The position numbers and the translations under genes are program-made. Positions 14,129 through 22,597 of a stretch of 64,000 nucleotides of DNA are shown here, piece by piece. This stretch comes from Candidatus Brocadia sp. GTDB lineage: Bacteria > Planctomycetota > Brocadiia > Brocadiales > Brocadiaceae. The stretch covers positions 1 to 64,000 of the forward strand of contig WYAU01000008.1 in the NCBI GenBank assembly GCA_011525665.1, in the 5' to 3' direction. Each line of letters begins with the position of its first letter. The first letter of the stretch is position 1. The notes below the pieces were generated by a model. That model was given only the letters and a program-made list of their open reading frames with translations. It was not told the origin of the DNA and did not search any database.

Positions 14129-14164
14129 GAGGCGTCGCGATTTTCACAAAAGTCGCGCCGCCTC
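14129..14164. terminator. bidirectional intrinsic terminator between rpoD and the TPR gene
   Basis: GAGGCGTCGCGA (14129-14140) pairs with TCGCGCCGCCTC (14153-14164) with one mismatch around a 12-nt loop that itself can pair TTTT with AAAA. A pyrimidine-rich TATTTCTTT tract follows on the plus strand. It ends both convergent transcripts; its right arm reaches the stop codon of the TPR gene. Confidence 0.8.
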
Positions 14165-16300
14165 TATTTCTTTATCCCCAGTTTTTCAATCATCTTATTG
14201 ATAGCATCCTTTTGGTCGGGCTCCAGGGCGGACAATTCCCTCAGATAAAAAATAGCCTTTTCACTATCCCTCTTATAGTTCCAATACAGCATAATAAGAT
14301 TTACGTATGCGTTAGCATTTTTCGGATGTCTCTGAATGATTGATTCAAATTCAGCAATTGCCTCTTCTCCATGCCCTTTTTTCATATAGGCATTACCCAG
14401 ATTTTCGCAATAGATAATGCTCTTCGGGTCGTTTTCCGTGGCAGCCCTGTATTCAAAAATAGCCTCATCAAGGGCACCTTTTTTTAAATATACATTACCG
14501 ATGTTGTTGTGCGTATGAGCGCTGTTTGGGTCAATTGAAAGCGAAAGCTGGTATTCCTTCATGGCTTTCTCCAGTAAACCCTTGTCCTCGTAAATATTTC
14601 CCAGGTTGTTATGTGCATGCGGATTGTTCGTGTTAATTCGAATCACATTTTCATATTCGATCTCTGCGTTACGGGACAAGCCCATCTTTCCGTAGGTTAC
14701 GCCCAGGTTAAAGTGGGCTGTTTCATTAAAGGGGCTGATTTCAATGGATTTTTTGTATTCGGCAATTGCATTGTTAAAATTCCCTTTGTCCAGATGCGCA
14801 TTGGCAAGATTACCATGCGCCTCAGAATAATCAGGCCTGATATGAATAGCCGTAGTGTATTCCCGGATTGCCGCATCCATAAACCCCATTTTTTTGTATA
14901 AAACACCCAAATTGTTGTGCGCCCGTGAACTCCGAGGCGACCGTTTTGCAGTCATTGACCATAGCGAAAGGTCATCAAACCAGATTTTAGAAATCCCACA
15001 TGTTTGCCAGGAAAACCCGATCAAAATGAGTATGGTTGCGAAGGTAAAACCGTAAGAATTTAAGACGCAGCGCCTTGAGCCTAAACGTGGAATATGATTG
15101 AGCAAAAAAGCCCCCAGAAGGCAGAATCCAACAAGAGAGAGATAGAGATAACGCTCTGCCATGATATTTTCTATGGGGATAACATTCATGACAGGGAACA
15201 AGGTGATGAAAAACCACAACACAGAAAGAAACAAAATCCTGGAACGAAAAAACAATCGGTACGTAATTACCATTACAGAAAAGATCAGAAGGAGGGACAC
15301 GATAAGGGATATTTCAAAGGGAGACGCCGTATGCTGAACGACATAATCGGCATTAAGATTTACGGGAAAAAAAAGGAGCCTGATATAAGAGGCAAGGACT
15401 TTAGGCATGGTCAGAAAGTTTACCCAGATACTGTTTTGAGGATAGGGGATGTAAGACTCTGTGGGGTTGTGCAGGAACACAAAACGTATCAGAATATAAT
15501 AGATACTAGCAAGGGCATAACCGAGATAGTTGCGGACATGGCTGCGGGTCAACCGGGCCTTACTATGACCCAGGATGTCATAGCAAACGACGAGTACAGG
15601 CAAGGTGATAGCCATTTCCTTGGAAAACAGACCCATGAGATAGCATATGAGAGAAACGGAATACCAGAGGGGAAATCTTTGCTGACAGGCCTTGAGGTAG
15701 AAATGAAAGGCAGCGAGGTAAAAAGTGGCAGACAGAAGGTCTTCACGGTAGCTGATGGCATTGACAGCCTCTGCAAGAACGGGGTGAGCGCAAAAGATCA
15801 GACACGCCATAATAAGGTATAGAGGTTTTTAGAACCGGGGGGCTGGGAACTGATGCCTCTGAATTTTTTGGAAAAACAGGCTCCATCTTTTTACGTCTTT
15901 CTCCGAATACACTCACGAGGCGGGTGAGAAAGAAGAACAGGAGGATGGTATTAAGGCAGTGGAGGGATAGGTTTGTAAGATGATACCCAACCGGATTGAG
16001 GCGCCAGAGGGTGTAATCGATAAAATAGGTTAACGTAACAAGCGGTCGATAGCTGAGTTCTCCGGCAGCCACGAAGTAATCACCGTTGAAAATCGTTGGC
16101 GCGTTGCGCCACGACCTTATCAGATAATTATTTACAACGGTAAATTTGTCATCATAAGCAAAATTGTTTCCTATGGTATACAGATAGAGAACTATGGATA
16201 CAATGATGATAAGAGTTAACTGGTAAACGAAAAGGTGTGATTTATAGGATATGACTGCTACCGCCCCATTTTTACCGCCGGGTTGGTATAAATTATGCAT
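14164..16300 (-). pseudogene. TMTC-like membrane protein with C-terminal TPR array, split by one frameshift
   Basis: Two overlapping frames make one protein. The upstream part starts at 16300 and encodes a TM helix, the acidic loop 'NNFAYDDKFTVVNN', 'SYRPLVTLTYFIDY' and 'GYHLTNLSLHCLNTILLFF', the N-terminal signature of TMTC-like TPR membrane proteins (DUF1736 context). The downstream part continues with 'FCAHPVLAEAVNAISYREDLLSATF', several more TM helices, and then at least seven TPR units (for example 'AHNNLGVLYKKMGFMDAAIREYTTAI') to 14164. The frames meet at a run of five T's (15826-15830, AAAAA in the mRNA): dropping one A restores a continuous protein of about 710 residues. This is either a real disruption, a slippage site, or a homopolymer sequencing error. 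Eukaryotic TMTC proteins are O-mannosyltransferases; the bacterial role is unknown. Confidence 0.8.
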
Positions 16301-16621: not shown

Positions 16622-17214
16622 CTACCCGGATATGCCCTTTATGATTGGGTAATCAGGGCGGGTGCTCCATTCACTCCATGAACCGGCATACAAACGAACA
16701 GTTCCTAATCACGAATGGGCCAAAGCAAGCAGATTGTGCGATGCAGTGACGCCGGAACCACTGTGGAAAATCGTACGTTCAGGTGGCACATTATCGAGGA
16801 TGCGCCGGAAGGGGGCATTCAAATCGTTCGGGGAAAGGAAGGTGCCATCCGAATCCAGATTATTCCTAAAAGGCACAGATAGCGCACCGGGAATATGGCC
16901 AGCCACCGGATCTATTGTCTTATTTTCTTCACGATAGCGGTCAGCGCTGCGGGAGTCAATTAAACGAAAGTTTGGATTTGGACAAATGCTTCGGCCTTTG
17001 GTAACGGATGACGTCCGGTTATGCCCTGGATGATGTGGCCGGATAAGTCTTCATTCAGATGTGCGTAAATGGCGCCGGCTATATGGGTTTGAAGGTAATC
17101 CCGGCGACCGCGGTCTGCGCTATCCAACGAAAAACGGCAATCAATGATCATCCAATCGGGATTGGCAATATGATTAACCAGTTGTCCGGTGGATATAAGG
17201 GTAGTGTAAGACAT
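16622..17214 (-). pseudogene. decayed two-domain thiosulfate/3-mercaptopyruvate sulfurtransferase
   Basis: The N-terminal fragment (17214 to about 16985) starts MSYTTLISTGQLVNHIANPD and carries 'MIIDCRFSLDSADRGRRDYLQTHIAGAIYAHLNEDLSG', the start of the first rhodanese domain. It then jumps, with a frame change, into 'NPNFRLIDSRSADRYR' and 'VAGHIPGALSVPFRNNLDSDG' of the second domain, so about 130 codons in the middle are missing. The active-site loop reads IFHSGSGVTASHNLLAL: the catalytic Cys of the usual CGSGVTAC is Ser. An in-frame TGA interrupts 'LAHS-stop-LGTVRLYAGSW' before the natural end 'PDYPIIKGISG' and TAG at 16622-16624. Deletion, frameshift, nonsense codon and lost nucleophile all point to a dead gene. 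Confidence 0.88.
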
Positions 17215-17272: not shown

Positions 17273-18022
17273 TCATTGCAAAATACCCAGCCAATCCCTT
17301 AGCAAGAATTGAATCCTGCCGATAAGCAACGACAACCTGCCCATGACCGTGTAGCCGAAGGATGCGCCGAAGGAGATCATGAGAAACCATATCCCGATCT
17401 TCGATACCTTTCCGATCGCGCCCTTATGTTCGACGGAAAAGATAAAGTAGATAAGTACGGAGATTACCCCCAGCATGATAAGCAAGGTATTAATGCTGGA
17501 GAGCATGGTTTCCCCTCCTGAAAAGACGGGATTTAAGGAAGGTTTGATCTGCTCCAGGATGAATGCCGAGATGACACGTGGAATGCTTACACCGGCCCCA
17601 AGACCTACCACGAATGCAAATGTCCATCGGCTCAGCCATGATAATTTCTTCGAAAATCTGAGCAGCATAAAGATTCCCAAGAGGGAGGGAATGAGTAATG
17701 CATACCGGGGATCCCGTGTTGCAGTCTTTGAAAAAATCGGTACGATGAGGGGGTCATACAAATCCGGTTTCAAAAAATTGAACCAGGTAATAATAATGGT
17801 ATAGCCCAAAGAAACGCCAACATAAAGGTTCTCAGCAATCTTGAATGCCGGATTGTCCTTATACAGGAAGCTGTAAATGGCCAGGGTAAGGCCCGCGCCC
17901 AGGATAATTCCAAACCCGTCAGAGGAAAAAGGCAGTTTTCCTGAGGCCATTAAAAAAATATTAATGCAAACAAACAAACCGATTGTACCAATCAAAATGA
18001 AAAAGTTAGAATTCTTACGCAT
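17273..18022 (-). CDS. polytopic membrane protein of unknown function (DUF6754-cluster)
   Basis: This 249-residue protein has about seven or eight hydrophobic helices and no soluble domain. It begins MRKNSNFFILIGTIGLFVCINIF and contains 'SDGFGIILGAGLTLAIYSFLYKDNPAFKIAENLYVGVSLGYTI'. I do not recognise a named family. Its start lies 3 bp after the stop of the 267-residue gene upstream and it is the last member of a minus-strand group of four (DUF6754-like protein, 218-residue membrane protein, 267-residue exported protein, this one). The context suggests a subunit of a membrane complex. No catalytic motif is apparent. Confidence 0.8.
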   Translation of the reverse strand: MRKNSNFFILIGTIGLFVCINIFLMASGKLPFSSDGFGIILGAGLTLAIYSFLYKDNPAFKIAENLYVGVSLGYTIIITWFNFLKPDLYDPLIVPIFSKTATRDPRYALLIPSLLGIFMLLRFSKKLSWLSRWTFAFVVGLGAGVSIPRVISAFILEQIKPSLNPVFSGGETMLSSINTLLIMLGVISVLIYFIFSVEHKGAIGKVSKIGIWFLMISFGASFGYTVMGRLSLLIGRIQFLLRDWLGILQ

Positions 18023-18025
18023 GCA

Positions 18026-18829
18026 TTACCTTTTTGACAGGAAATAGATGACGTTGCCAAATATGACAAAGAGAATGATAATCACATGTACGACACTTTG
18101 CGGACGCATCCCGCTCACGGCGCGCGCTTTTTTCCCCACCAAGGCCTCGTATTCAGCCGCACCCTTGAGGCCGCCGAGCAAGCCGGTAAGCTGTTTCGAT
18201 TGGAGAAAGGGGTACATGTCAGGCCCCATCACAGCGGTGCATCCCGCCCCCAGTTCGAATTTATATTTTTCCTTTCCAAAAGCTATCCACATTTCAATAG
18301 TTGTGCCCGCTGCAAGGTCAAATAAGTAATCGATTTCCCTTAATGAATCGACACCCTGCAGTGCGGGTAATGTTGTTGTCTCATTTCCGTAAAAATCCTT
18401 GGGGAATGCGGAATAAAGGTTTTCTCCCATATTGATAACGAGTGATGCGGAACCGGGTTTATAACCCAGAAAGACGTAGTCCTCACCGTATTTTTTCTGG
18501 TATTGGCTGGCTACGGAGGTCAACGCCTGCTCTGCAAGCCCGGGGGCGCCCGGATAATGTGTCATGCCAATAACCTTTAAATCCCTGCTGAAACAATGAT
18601 GGAGAAAGGCAATGGACATAGGTTGTAGTTCCTCTTTTGAGGAGGGATCATAATCAAAGGCAACCATGACATGGGAACCTGCAGGAAGCGATTCTATCTT
18701 CTTGTAAATTCCGTGCACCGGTTCCGAGGCGGGTATAGGCAACTCAAATCTCAAAACAAGGGAAACAATGACCGCCACGGTGATGATTGCAAAGATAATG
18801 CGTCGGTCTATCCGTAAAAACCTTTCCAC
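18026..18829 (-). CDS. bitopic protein with large extracytoplasmic domain, unknown function (DUF6754-cluster)
   Basis: This 267-residue protein has an N-terminal TM helix (about 12-29, 'IIFAIITVAVIVSLVLRF'), a soluble domain of about 210 residues and a C-terminal TM helix (about 243-263). The soluble part reads 'GSHVMVAFDYDPSSKEELQPMSIAFLHHCFSRDLKVIGMTHYPGAPGLAEQAL' and later 'DYVFLGYKPGSASLVINMGENLYSAFPKDFYG'. I do not recognise it with certainty. The alternating strand-helix pattern suggests an alpha/beta fold. It sits between two polytopic membrane proteins in the same direction, 3 bp upstream of the next gene and 62 bp downstream of the previous one. Confidence 0.8.
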   Translation of the reverse strand: MERFLRIDRRIIFAIITVAVIVSLVLRFELPIPASEPVHGIYKKIESLPAGSHVMVAFDYDPSSKEELQPMSIAFLHHCFSRDLKVIGMTHYPGAPGLAEQALTSVASQYQKKYGEDYVFLGYKPGSASLVINMGENLYSAFPKDFYGNETTTLPALQGVDSLREIDYLFDLAAGTTIEMWIAFGKEKYKFELGAGCTAVMGPDMYPFLQSKQLTGLLGGLKGAAEYEALVGKKARAVSGMRPQSVVHVIIILFVIFGNVIYFLSKR

Positions 18830-18891
18830 TAATCACCTCCCCTTGGTCGGGTCCGTCTGATGATAGCCATGCTGCACGAACAAAAGCCTTC

Positions 18892-19548
18892 TCATTGCTC
18901 GCCCCCCCCCAGATAAGACCGTTCAATGCCAAATATGATTTTAAGAGATGTCGCAATTGCTCCAAGACTCACACCTAAAAGAATGCCACGTTTGGCGGCA
19001 AGGTTAGGGACAGCCATAATCCAATCGGCAACAGCAGGGATATACTGAGAGATATAGTTCCCAATAGGCACACGTCCAAGCATAACGATAATGGCTGCGA
19101 TTAATAATACCGTCGATTCGTTCGTACGGGCACGAAAGGTACGATAAGCTGCAGAAGCAATAAAAAATGCCAAAATGGAAAAGATCGTGGCCCCGGCGGG
19201 AACCTGTATATAGTAATAAAGCCAATCAAACATCGTACCATCCTGTTTGTCATTCCAGAAAAATTTTCCGCCGTTCAACAAACCAAATATCAGGGTAATT
19301 ATTGCCCCGAAAAAGACAAAGGCACTGTATCCCCAGCCTTCTACCTTCCTTTTGATCCTCGTCCAGTGGAGATGGAAAAGGCTATACGCCCCGATAAACA
19401 CGGCAAAACCTGCAATAATCCTGTCCCATCTGGTTACCACCTCCAGCAGGTCCTGTGAGAGTTTGTGGGGGACATAATACTGCAGAGCCATGAGTACACC
19501 CATGACAAAGGCAATAATCAGCGGAATAGTACGTTTTAAAAAATTCAT
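18892..19548 (-). CDS. polytopic membrane protein of unknown function (DUF6754-cluster)
   Basis: This 218-residue protein has six likely TM helices: MNFLKRTIPLIIAFVMGVLM at the start, 'RIIAGFAVFIGAYSLFHLH', 'YSAFVFFGAIITLIFGLL', 'GATIFSILAFFIASAAY', 'STVLLIAAIIVMLG' and 'GILLGVSLGAIATSLKIIFG'. It ends IERSYLGGGEQ. I cannot assign a family by name. It sits in the minus-strand group downstream of a DUF6754-like protein and a decayed HEPN gene; its ATG overlaps the end of that decayed frame. It is likely one subunit of the same membrane complex as its neighbours. Confidence 0.8.
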   Translation of the reverse strand: MNFLKRTIPLIIAFVMGVLMALQYYVPHKLSQDLLEVVTRWDRIIAGFAVFIGAYSLFHLHWTRIKRKVEGWGYSAFVFFGAIITLIFGLLNGGKFFWNDKQDGTMFDWLYYYIQVPAGATIFSILAFFIASAAYRTFRARTNESTVLLIAAIIVMLGRVPIGNYISQYIPAVADWIMAVPNLAAKRGILLGVSLGAIATSLKIIFGIERSYLGGGEQ

Positions 19549-19901
19549 AAGTAATTACTTGCTAAAACCATGTCCTTGTTCGGAAAATGCAGATCCGTAC
19601 CATTAGATATATAATCAGAATGTGTGCCTGAAACCCAACCATTCGGATATCTTGCGGAGATATAAAATTTATCCAACTGTTTTGCACTATGTATTAAGTC
19701 CACAGGAACCTTCACCTTTTCGCAAAGTCCTTTTAACAGTTCGCCCACTGAATGTCCCCACGCTTCACCGCCACAGCCTCTTCTGCCCCCTGCTGGGCGA
19801 TAAAACAAGACCATTCAAAGAATCCCACCTTTCATCTGCGCCCTGGTGCTTTCTCTATCTTTTTCCGCCTGTTTTATCCAATCTGTGCTTCTTTCAGGCA
19901 T
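19545..19901 (-). pseudogene. decayed HEPN-domain protein gene
   Basis: Starting from ATG at 19901 the frame reads MPERSTDWIKQAEKDRESTR, the usual start of minimal HEPN (PF05168) proteins. It then meets TGA after 'KGGIL'. A one-base shift continues as FFEWSCFIAQQGAEEAV, the core HEPN helix. Another shift continues as 'EAWGHSVGELLKGLCEK' and 'AKQLDKFYISARYPNGW', the family's C-terminal helices. At least two frameshifts and a loss of several codons mean no intact protein is made. Only the last 89 codons form an open frame (ATG at 19814). No partner nucleotidyltransferase is adjacent. It interrupts the otherwise compact DUF6754-type cluster, so it probably arrived by insertion. Confidence 0.8.
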
Positions 19902-19944
19902 AATTTGTTTCCCTTTATTAAAGCAAAATTAGGAATAGTTTATA

Positions 19945-21207
19945 CTAAAAAGCCTCAAAGAGATGCGTAATAAATTTCAGCCCAAAACTGGCCAGCAAAG
20001 TGCCAAATATTAATATAATAATAAGTATGCCCTTTCCCACATCCTGCGCCCTGAGTGTACCCATGAGCATCGGTTCCCTGGACAAATAGGCACTGGCCGC
20101 ATAAAGCTCCTCTCCAATCAGGGTGTAATCGCATGTGGTAATAAAGAATGGCAACTGGGTGTAGGCATCAGTGCCGGCGATCTGGATAGCTCCGGTAGAG
20201 GCGCCGGTTTCTGCCAGGATCAATGCCTCTGCATAGAAATAGCCGACAAAAAAATTAGCGGCGGGTCTTTCGCGGGTCATAATACCACCCACTGCTGCAA
20301 CATACGGGAATTGTTCCGAGGCCACGAGAAAGACGTTATCCGGATTATAGGCATCAGGACGTCCTGCTTCAAGATACGATTCCTTCACTACCTCCTGGCT
20401 GACAGACATCACAATGGGGTCATTATTCACAACCTTTAAATTTGCATCATAATCTGCAATCTTTCGCGCAATCCTGCCCAGGATACTTGTTGCTGCGATC
20501 GTTGAGATGCTTCCCATCCCAGTCAGCCCGTGAACAAAAAGGACCGGTTTGCCCATCTCCGTGGCGCGTCCCAGGGCATCATCCACGGCATCCAAACCAC
20601 CAATCTTCCTCAGAAACATATTGGGATTTTTCCGTGCATGCACTATAAAATAGAGGATAATAGCGGAAAGAATGATCATTATTGCAAAATTATTTATCTT
20701 TTTTGTGTGCAACCAATTACCGCGAGCCGACGCAGAGGCAATGGTATCCAGGGTGATTTTTGTATCCTCTGCCACCATTACCAGCTTGAAATAATAGACC
20801 TGCTTTTTACCAAGGGTTTCTCCCTGAAAAATCTTCCGGGGAAATATTTGAACATGGTGATAGTCTCCATTTTCCTTTTTATAACCGTAAATTTCAGGGA
20901 CGCTTGTCCGATAGCCGGTATTTGACTTGATACGGATAGCTTCTTTCTCAAAAGAGCCATTTTTATCCTTGTCGGTGTAAATTACATAGAAGATATCGGG
21001 ATGGTCACTGGGAGACACAGACCATGTCAGTGATATGGCCTCCCCGGCATCGTTCGGGGTATCAAAGGCCTTAAAATCAGCAGGGGGGATGAGAAAGGGT
21101 GGTGATTGAGCAAAGATGACAGAAGGGTGGAAAAATACGATGAAAATGATACCGGCAGTAAAAAATAATTTTCCGAATACTGACGTCATTATCAGAATTA
21201 ATAACAT
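19945..21207 (-). CDS. DUF6754-like membrane protein with extracytoplasmic FN3-like domain
   Basis: This 420-residue protein has a signal or anchor helix (about 12-33), a beta-rich domain of about 130 residues opening 'PPADFKAFDTPNDAGEAISLTWSVSPSD' that looks like a fibronectin-III-type fold, and a TM helix (about 173-189, 'FAIMIILSAIILYFIV'). A conserved cytoplasmic domain follows: 'GGLDAVDDALGRATEMGKPVLFVHGLTGMGSISTIAATSILGRIARKIADYD', 'VASEQFPYVAAVGGIMTRERPAANFFVGYFYAEALILAETG', 'IAGTDAYTQLPFFITTCDYTLIGEELYAASAYLSREP', and a last TM helix. I assign DUF6754 from memory of this pattern. Its activity is unknown. It heads a group with three other uncharacterised membrane or exported proteins. 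Confidence 0.7.
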   Translation of the reverse strand: MLLILIMTSVFGKLFFTAGIIFIVFFHPSVIFAQSPPFLIPPADFKAFDTPNDAGEAISLTWSVSPSDHPDIFYVIYTDKDKNGSFEKEAIRIKSNTGYRTSVPEIYGYKKENGDYHHVQIFPRKIFQGETLGKKQVYYFKLVMVAEDTKITLDTIASASARGNWLHTKKINNFAIMIILSAIILYFIVHARKNPNMFLRKIGGLDAVDDALGRATEMGKPVLFVHGLTGMGSISTIAATSILGRIARKIADYDANLKVVNNDPIVMSVSQEVVKESYLEAGRPDAYNPDNVFLVASEQFPYVAAVGGIMTRERPAANFFVGYFYAEALILAETGASTGAIQIAGTDAYTQLPFFITTCDYTLIGEELYAASAYLSREPMLMGTLRAQDVGKGILIIILIFGTLLASFGLKFITHLFEAF

Positions 21208-21568: not shown

Positions 21569-22597
21569 ATGCACTATTTGCCACTTCTTATTATATCTAT
21601 AAGCACATCAGTATTTTTATTTGTTTTACTCTTTCTGTTCTTCGGCATATGTGGATTTGTTCTTTTTAAATTCGGGTGGCTCTATATCAAGGCAGTTTCA
21701 TCAAATGCGCACGTATCCTTCTTGCAAATGATCAGCATGACATTTCGGAACGTTGATGTGCGGTCTATTGTAGAATGCCGTATCATGGCAAAAAAGATGG
21801 GAATCGATATCGCTCCGTCATCCCTGGAAGCGCATTCTCTGGCAGGCGGCAATGCACATCAAGTCGTTCGCTCACTTATCGCGGCGCAAAAGGCAAATAT
21901 CCGGCTTAGTTTTGACCGCGCCTGTGCCATAGATTTGTCGGGGAGGGATGTATTTGAAGCCGTGAAAACCTGCATCAACCCGAAGGTGATCGATTGTCCC
22001 GATCCCGTTAAAGGAACTACTGCCTTAGATGCCATCGCAAAGGACGGCATTCAGCTAAAAGTAAAAGCGCGTGTGACTATCCGCACCGATATTGAAAGAC
22101 TTGTGGGGGGGGCAGCCGAGGAGACCGTGATTGCCCGTGTGAGCGAAGGCATTATTACGACTATCGGTTCGTTGGAAACGTATAAAAAAGCGCTTGAAAG
22201 CCCTGATCTGGTATCTAAGCTTGTCATGGAAAAGAAATGTGATAATGATACGGCTTTTCAGATACTTTCGGTTAATATTGTTACTGTGACGGTGGGTGAC
22301 AACGTTGCTGCAAAACTGCAGGCCGAGCAGTCTGAGGCGGATACACGTATGGCGCAGGCGGATGCCAAAAAACGACGGGGAATGGCCCTTGCGCGCGAGC
22401 AAGAGATGAAAGTGATGAGAGAGGAAAATATTGCAAAAATACTGGCGGCTGAGGTCGAAGTGCCAAAGGCCATTGCCCAGGCATTTCGGGAGGGCAATCT
22501 TGGCATTATGGATTACTATCATCTGAAAAATATTCAGGCCGATACCGAGATGAAGGCATCTTCATCTTCAAAACCTGGAATTTCACCGTCGATGTAA
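21569..22597 (+). CDS. floA: flotillin-like protein FloA
   Basis: This 342-residue membrane scaffold protein has an N-terminal hydrophobic hairpin (about 5-45), then the FloA core: 'AHVSFLQMISMTFRNVDVRSIVECRIMAKKMGIDI', 'SLEAHSLAGGNAHQVVRSLIAAQKA', 'FDRACAIDLSGRDVFEAVKT', and 'IQLKVKARVTIRTDIERLVGGAAEETVIARVSEGIITTIGS'. The C-terminal half is a charged Ala/Glu/Lys-rich helix (about 245-310) for oligomerisation. The length matches FloA/YqfA proteins. The family organises membrane microdomains and was linked in Bacillus to envelope stress. A GGAAAAAGGAA stretch precedes the ATG. A tRNA gene follows. Confidence 0.93.
   Translation: MHYLPLLIISISTSVFLFVLLFLFFGICGFVLFKFGWLYIKAVSSNAHVSFLQMISMTFRNVDVRSIVECRIMAKKMGIDIAPSSLEAHSLAGGNAHQVVRSLIAAQKANIRLSFDRACAIDLSGRDVFEAVKTCINPKVIDCPDPVKGTTALDAIAKDGIQLKVKARVTIRTDIERLVGGAAEETVIARVSEGIITTIGSLETYKKALESPDLVSKLVMEKKCDNDTAFQILSVNIVTVTVGDNVAAKLQAEQSEADTRMAQADAKKRRGMALAREQEMKVMREENIAKILAAEVEVPKAIAQAFREGNLGIMDYYHLKNIQADTEMKASSSSKPGISPSM

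Follow-up and report, generated by a model that had tools for sequence, protein, structure and literature searches.

GlmL/MutL proteins (PF13941, NF040745) are ASKHA ATPases and accessory proteins of glutamate (methylaspartate) mutase. More broadly, ASKHA proteins have been proposed as reactivases or maturation factors for B12-dependent mutases, while BadF/HgdC-type activators serve dehydratases. For a second family, DUF6754 (PF20539), Pfam gives no function. Members of both families belong to the gene set described here, which was recognized in a window of 64,000 nucleotides (the whole stretch of DNA that was analysed; contig C66 of genome G000, 3.63 Mb) from the anammox genus Candidatus Brocadia. 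Four minus-strand genes in this window, termed A, B, C and D in reading order, encode a DUF6754 protein and three further membrane proteins. Elsewhere, genes for a putative GlmL/MutL-type ATPase (P5), a barrel-sandwich-like protein (P4) and two more proteins (P6a and P6b) belong to the same cluster. The whole gene set very probably forms one functional system, in which P5, with nearly the same probability, acts together with P4, and the two probably act on A–D. The leading reading, with about even chances, is a conserved, ATP-dependent, multi-gene machine that serves the envelope and has A-B-C-D as its inner-membrane core.

The order of the four genes is directly observed in several phyla. Only loci in which A is followed by at least 3.6 kb of sequence were counted, and B, C and D had to come in that order on the strand of A. 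A is followed by B, C and D in 32/32 Brocadiales loci and in 31/32 from other groups, the sole exception being one in which A was apparently hit in two pieces and is followed by B and C. The same holds for 11 of the 14 A hits in other Planctomycetota and for 53 of the 73 in Stahlbacteria-type genomes, where most of the exceptions seem to come from a single A gene recorded as two hits. Besides Planctomycetota, the groups with A-B-C-D loci include Methylomirabilota, Latescibacterota, Bdellovibrionota and Stahlbacteria. This arrangement is far beyond chance. The initial annotation of the window had taken the four genes for a membrane complex of unknown role; recurrence of their order in other bacteria, across several phyla, bears it out as a conserved set, and the four proteins may form a physical complex.

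A tree of A groups the sequences mostly by phylum (7 label changes, with a minimum of 5 and a shuffled mean of 25.9), which fits mostly vertical descent. A metagenome bin titled Klebsiella pneumoniae (L098) contains an A-B-C-D set nearest to those of Methylomirabilota and is probably mislabelled. Spread of the system on plasmids was considered and set aside, a plasmid search having given no match. Gemmatimonadota was likewise dropped as a further phylum, since the DUF6754 search there returned the same set as Latescibacterota and thus no evidence.

Of 80 loci, 32 to 40 have members of three more families upstream of A, as revealed by clustering of the flanking open reading frames (ORFs). The complete cluster has the order P6a-P6b-P5-P4-A-B-C-D and is contiguous in several planctomycete families; in a Jettenia locus (L128) all of these genes lie in one stretch, and two Stahlbacteria-type loci (L173 and L174) read P6b-P5-P4-A-B-C-D-A-B-C-D. 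In the window genome, P6b-P5-P4 are found on another contig, C87 (L126), and they are arranged in the same way in a second Brocadia genome (L127). P6a has two transmembrane (TM) segments and a domain judged PH-like by eye, and P6b is a small protein. Of all the cluster proteins, only A and P5 reach the cut-off of a curated family, and the family of A is a DUF. The initial annotation was right and understated: A–D supply only the membrane half of a larger system, of which P5 and P4 lie outside the window and so were out of its view.

The P5 protein encoded on contig C87 matches MutL (PF13941) with 441.7 bits (cut-off 27) and the NCBIfam GlmL equivalog with 238.6 bits, about half of the cut-off of 475. 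An alignment of 45 P5 sequences retains the motifs DCGSTTTK and DIGGATTD, and it contains two invariant cysteines, C496 and C503, at the start of an extension of about 120 residues beyond the MutL domain. P5 is a GlmL/MutL-type ASKHA ATPase, and by family membership it would hydrolyse ATP. The earlier statement that no known catalytic motif is present holds for A–D, to which it referred; the wider system includes an ATPase. PF13941 occurs once per genome in each of nine Brocadiaceae genomes. Subunit E of glutamate mutase (GlmE, PF06368) was found in 0/20 tested genomes with the system, and therefore P5 serves another client, most simply P4 and A–D.

P4 resembles described proteins only faintly. 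Its N-terminus has weak RnfC, NqrA and Biotin_lipoyl profile likeness, all below cut-off (for the window genome, NQRA_N 14.0 bits with a cut-off of 25, and RnfC_N 13.1 with a cut-off of 25.6), and the remainder is strongly conserved, with a TEGFG...GATQIRAG..RPE region and a weakly KOW-like C-terminus. Pfam matches of two P4 proteins include no flavin mononucleotide (FMN), iron-sulfur (Fe-S) or SLBB domain, and the P4 alignment contains neither an invariant cysteine nor a canonical biotinyl MKM motif. At three loci (L198, L199 and L201), a single open protein of about 950 amino acids (958 in one case) combines P5-like and P4-like paralogous domains, and in two others (L200 and L202) the paralogue genes lie side by side. 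These distant paralogues possibly represent a second system of the same kind.

The distribution of A and P4 is closely matched. In 195 Planctomycetota genomes, for which the overlap was counted by hand from lists, A is present in 60 and P4 in 56; both occur in 55, A only in 5, P4 only in 1 and neither in 134. Among 100 Stahlbacteria-type genomes, 91 have both, 3 have A only, 3 have P4 only and 3 have neither. Combined over these 295 genomes of two phyla, A and P4 occur together in 146, are both missing in 137, and occur one without the other in 12; the sampled genomes are related, so these counts represent non-independent events. Co-occurrence was counted for A and P4, and P5 is tied to P4 by fusion and adjacency. 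Co-occurrence of A with P4, together with P4–P5 fusion and adjacency, thus links an ATPase to the membrane core. A was found in most sampled Brocadiales and in one large planctomycete family, in 94/100 Stahlbacteria-type genomes, in 54/64 Latescibacterota and in 14/60 Methylomirabilota, above the cut-off in 2/114 Bdellovibrionota, and in 0/14 control genomes. In most Stahlbacteria-type genomes P4 is full-length and single, while A reaches up to seven copies, and the genomes with that many are small. A-B-C-D is often tandem in this group, with three tandem units in L147, L150 and L152.

A is a full member of its family, as the initial annotation had proposed more cautiously: it matches PF20539 with 398.6 bits (gathering cut-off 27) over positions 2–257 of 257. 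Its predicted layout consists of an N-terminal signal or TM segment (~13–33), an FN3-like domain (~45–160), a TM segment (~172–192), the DUF6754 domain (~193–390) and a last TM segment (~394–414). The FN3 region is modelled by AlphaFold mostly at a predicted local distance difference test (pLDDT) score of ~80–94, its Foldseek matches are FN3 domains, and it appears to be periplasmic. The DUF6754 domain is very highly conserved. It is most likely cytosolic because, by the positive-inside rule, the TM helix before it precedes positive residues; the segment TTCDYTL.GEEL, predicted to be cytosolic, is invariant. Identity of A to 28 diverse homologues is 45–85%, and that of the window A to non-Brocadiales homologues is about 45–56%.

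TM segments were counted from alignment-averaged hydropathy, which predicts 3 in A, about 6 in B, 2 in C and about 7 in D, so that the two proteins first described as polytopic, B and D, remain so. C had been called bitopic, a description to be revised: two predicted TM helices (about 10–30 and 245–265), not one anchor, flank an alpha/beta Rossmann-like domain. The AlphaFold model of C has a pLDDT of 90 and a predicted template modelling score (pTM) of 0.86, and its domain is most likely periplasmic. A fold search of C against the PDB returned generic Rossmann-like folds, none at E <= 0.001, and its best PDB sequence match, neurexin (E 0.003), was treated as chance. B, C and D have no match that reaches a curated cut-off in Pfam or NCBIfam, transporter profiles included, and the PDB offers no credible sequence relative of A–D. 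Consistent with the initial annotation, no member is significantly homologous to a known transporter family in Pfam, NCBIfam or PDB sequences. hhalign gave no support for a shared origin of A and C or of B and D.

These features can be joined into a working model. Cytosolic P5 would hydrolyse ATP and, with P4 as intermediary, work on the conserved DUF6754 domain of A in the cytosol, thereby switching the state of the B/D membrane core. On the periplasmic side, the FN3 domain (in A) and the Rossmann-like domain (in C) would handle a client, and the outcome would be transport of a component across the envelope or its assembly there. Several A-B-C-D copies, with different clients, could share a single P5/P4 set; P5/P4 would then be the common unit that energises or assembles, and A–D the membrane core specific to the client. 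That P5 drives A–D is suggested by the genomic associations. Predicted topology and lineage-restricted neighbours point tentatively, at somewhat less than even chances, to export or assembly of an envelope component as the task. It is slightly less likely again that the system represents an undescribed class of machine, in which a GlmL-type ASKHA ATPase, as distinct from ABC, AAA+, SecA or V/F-type ATPases, powers or assembles a four-subunit core through a barrel-sandwich adaptor, with long inheritance in several phyla and amplification to seven copies in some small genomes.

Neighbouring genes hint at an envelope link. Wzm/Wzt-type ABC exporter genes follow P4 on the same strand in the window genome (contig C87, L126), and likewise in the second Brocadia genome (L127). 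In Stahlbacteria-type genomes, Wza-like and patatin-Omp85 genes lie near A–D (L148 and L154), Wzi-like genes immediately follow D in seven loci, and TonB/ExbB/ExbD genes lie near A–D in other loci. Several neighbours were rejected as fixed members because they are lineage-restricted: TonB/ExbBD, Wza, Wzi and genes of EF-G, UvrD and AsnS type (identified by eye) in Stahlbacteria-type genomes, and oligopeptide-type ABC ATPases and a PD40 peptidase in Latescibacterota.

Several observations weigh against the proposed machine. Neighbours beyond the cluster differ by lineage and many are housekeeping genes, which makes the envelope and transport reading weak. P4 lies next to A in only about half of the Brocadiales loci and in 2/75 Stahlbacteria-type loci. 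In a few genomes only one of A and P4 is present; the near-complete Brocadia genome G009 (L127), for instance, has P6b-P5-P4 and no detectable DUF6754 gene, for which loss or an assembly gap is suggested. Finally, the AlphaFold model of the DUF6754 domain is of low confidence, and the model of A yielded the FN3 domain only.

The main alternative is that A-B-C-D is a membrane-embedded enzyme and that P5 and P4 are its ATP-driven reactivase or maturation factors. The place of P5 in the GlmL/MutL family and its two invariant cysteines would suit such a role, as would the invariant cytosolic segment of A, and a single P5/P4 set per genome for several A–D copies is what a maturase might need. However, Pfam and NCBIfam reveal no enzyme family in A–D, glutamate mutase is absent (0/20 genomes), and A–D are predicted integral membrane proteins, unlike known GlmL-type clients. 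An enzyme is thus unlikely, though it is the closest competitor to the ATP-dependent machine. A signalling or envelope-sensing complex, with the periplasmic FN3 and Rossmann-like domains as ligand binders and P5/P4 as the relay of the state in the cytosol, is distinctly improbable: A and C each appear to hold a folded periplasmic domain, and copies multiply in some lineages, as is often seen with sensors, yet the loci examined show no conserved gene for an output domain, kinase or regulator beside the cluster, and two polytopic subunits exceed usual sensing needs.

The sub-threshold P4 matches to RnfC_N, NQRA_N and Biotin_lipoyl, along with polytopic partners, might also be taken to mean that P4 is an RnfC/NqrA-type subunit and the complete assembly an ion-translocating redox pump or a biotin-dependent decarboxylase. 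With every such match under its cut-off, with the FMN, Fe-S and SLBB domains, an invariant cysteine and the MKM motif missing from P4, and with B and D matching no Rnf, Nqr or decarboxylase membrane family, the probability of a pump is very low. Lower still is that of genes that are neighbours without a common function. The HEPN remnant that parts A from B, and the location of P4–P6b on another contig in the window genome, are what mere neighbours could display; gene order across several phyla and matched presence and absence contradict them.

The coordinates of the window genes and related features are collected in the table below. The ORFs confirm four minus-strand genes, separated by gaps of 3 bp (D/C), 62 bp (C/B) and 396 bp (B/A), with a broken gene in the last gap, as first annotated. 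This HEPN remnant covers profile positions 48–96 of 117 (E 1.3e-6), with further pieces in other frames, and is an insertion outside the A–D system. Small genes have been inserted at the A/B junction repeatedly in Brocadiaceae: one set of relatives has PDDEXK_3 (GxxExxY-type) genes there, and another has PIN-like genes. Beyond D lies a sulfurtransferase (3-mercaptopyruvate sulfurtransferase/rhodanese-like) pseudogene, in which the first ~77 residues are open and the remainder is in another frame; its active-site-like loop, HSGSGVTA, has Ser at the expected Cys position. A TPR membrane protein further on appears to be split over two overlapping frames, pointing to a frameshift or an assembly error. 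The flotillin-like gene FloA is divergent from A. It was rejected as a partner of A–D, as it is divergently adjacent only in some Brocadia genomes, and the adjacency was not seen outside Brocadia in the loci checked.

Table. Positions of the A–D genes and of associated features (window positions unless a locus is named).
Feature	Position	Strand	Basis or remark
A, DUF6754 protein, 420 amino acids	19945-21207	minus	PF20539
B, polytopic membrane protein, 218 amino acids, no family	18892-19548	minus	ORF, hydropathy
C, two-TM protein, 267 amino acids, GTG start, no family	18026-18829	minus	AlphaFold, conservation
D, polytopic membrane protein, 249 amino acids, no family	17273-18022	minus	ORF, hydropathy
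HEPN-domain gene remnant between A and B	19545-19814	minus	PF05168 partial match
GlmL-P4 fusion genes	L198:8763-11612, L199:4923-7772, L201:6686-9559		not beside A-D
Inserted genes at the A/B junction, examples in relatives	L022:5705-6145, L041:9471-9905		
Sulfurtransferase pseudogene	~16640-17214	minus	open part 16960-17214
TPR membrane protein	14164-16300	minus	frames 15743-16300 and 14164-15810
FloA	21569-22597	plus	

No paper on DUF6754, PF20539, PF13941 or GlmL with methylaspartate mutase was found in the open-access literature, subscription literature and preprints lying outside the search, and the main text of a paper on essential genes of P. limnophila (PMC10632474) mentions neither DUF6754 nor MutL. 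Within the same open-access scope, no account of the system as a whole was found.

Compared with known systems, A matches DUF6754 across the whole length of the family, and its partners B, C, D and P4–P6 were not found described with it. In some genomes of Brocadia and of the Stahlbacteria type, polysaccharide export genes of the Wzm/Wzt and Wza types stand next to parts of the system; however, no sequence relation of A–D to them was found, and the adjacency is lineage-restricted. The P4 N-terminus is weakly and sub-threshold like the RnfC/NqrA barrel-sandwich, while P4 differs in its undetected FMN, Fe-S and SLBB domains and in having its own conserved region. P5 shares the MutL domain and intact ASKHA motifs with GlmL and differs in its score, in the absence of mutase subunit E, in its linkage to P4 and membrane proteins, and in its cysteine-bearing extension. 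Orphan GlmL-type ASKHA ATPases thereby gain a likely membrane partner, and their mechanism becomes testable. The wide spread of the system and its very strongly conserved proteins argue for an important role, though most parts are without a family, and mark it out as a possible seat of undescribed envelope processes in anammox bacteria and further planctomycetes.

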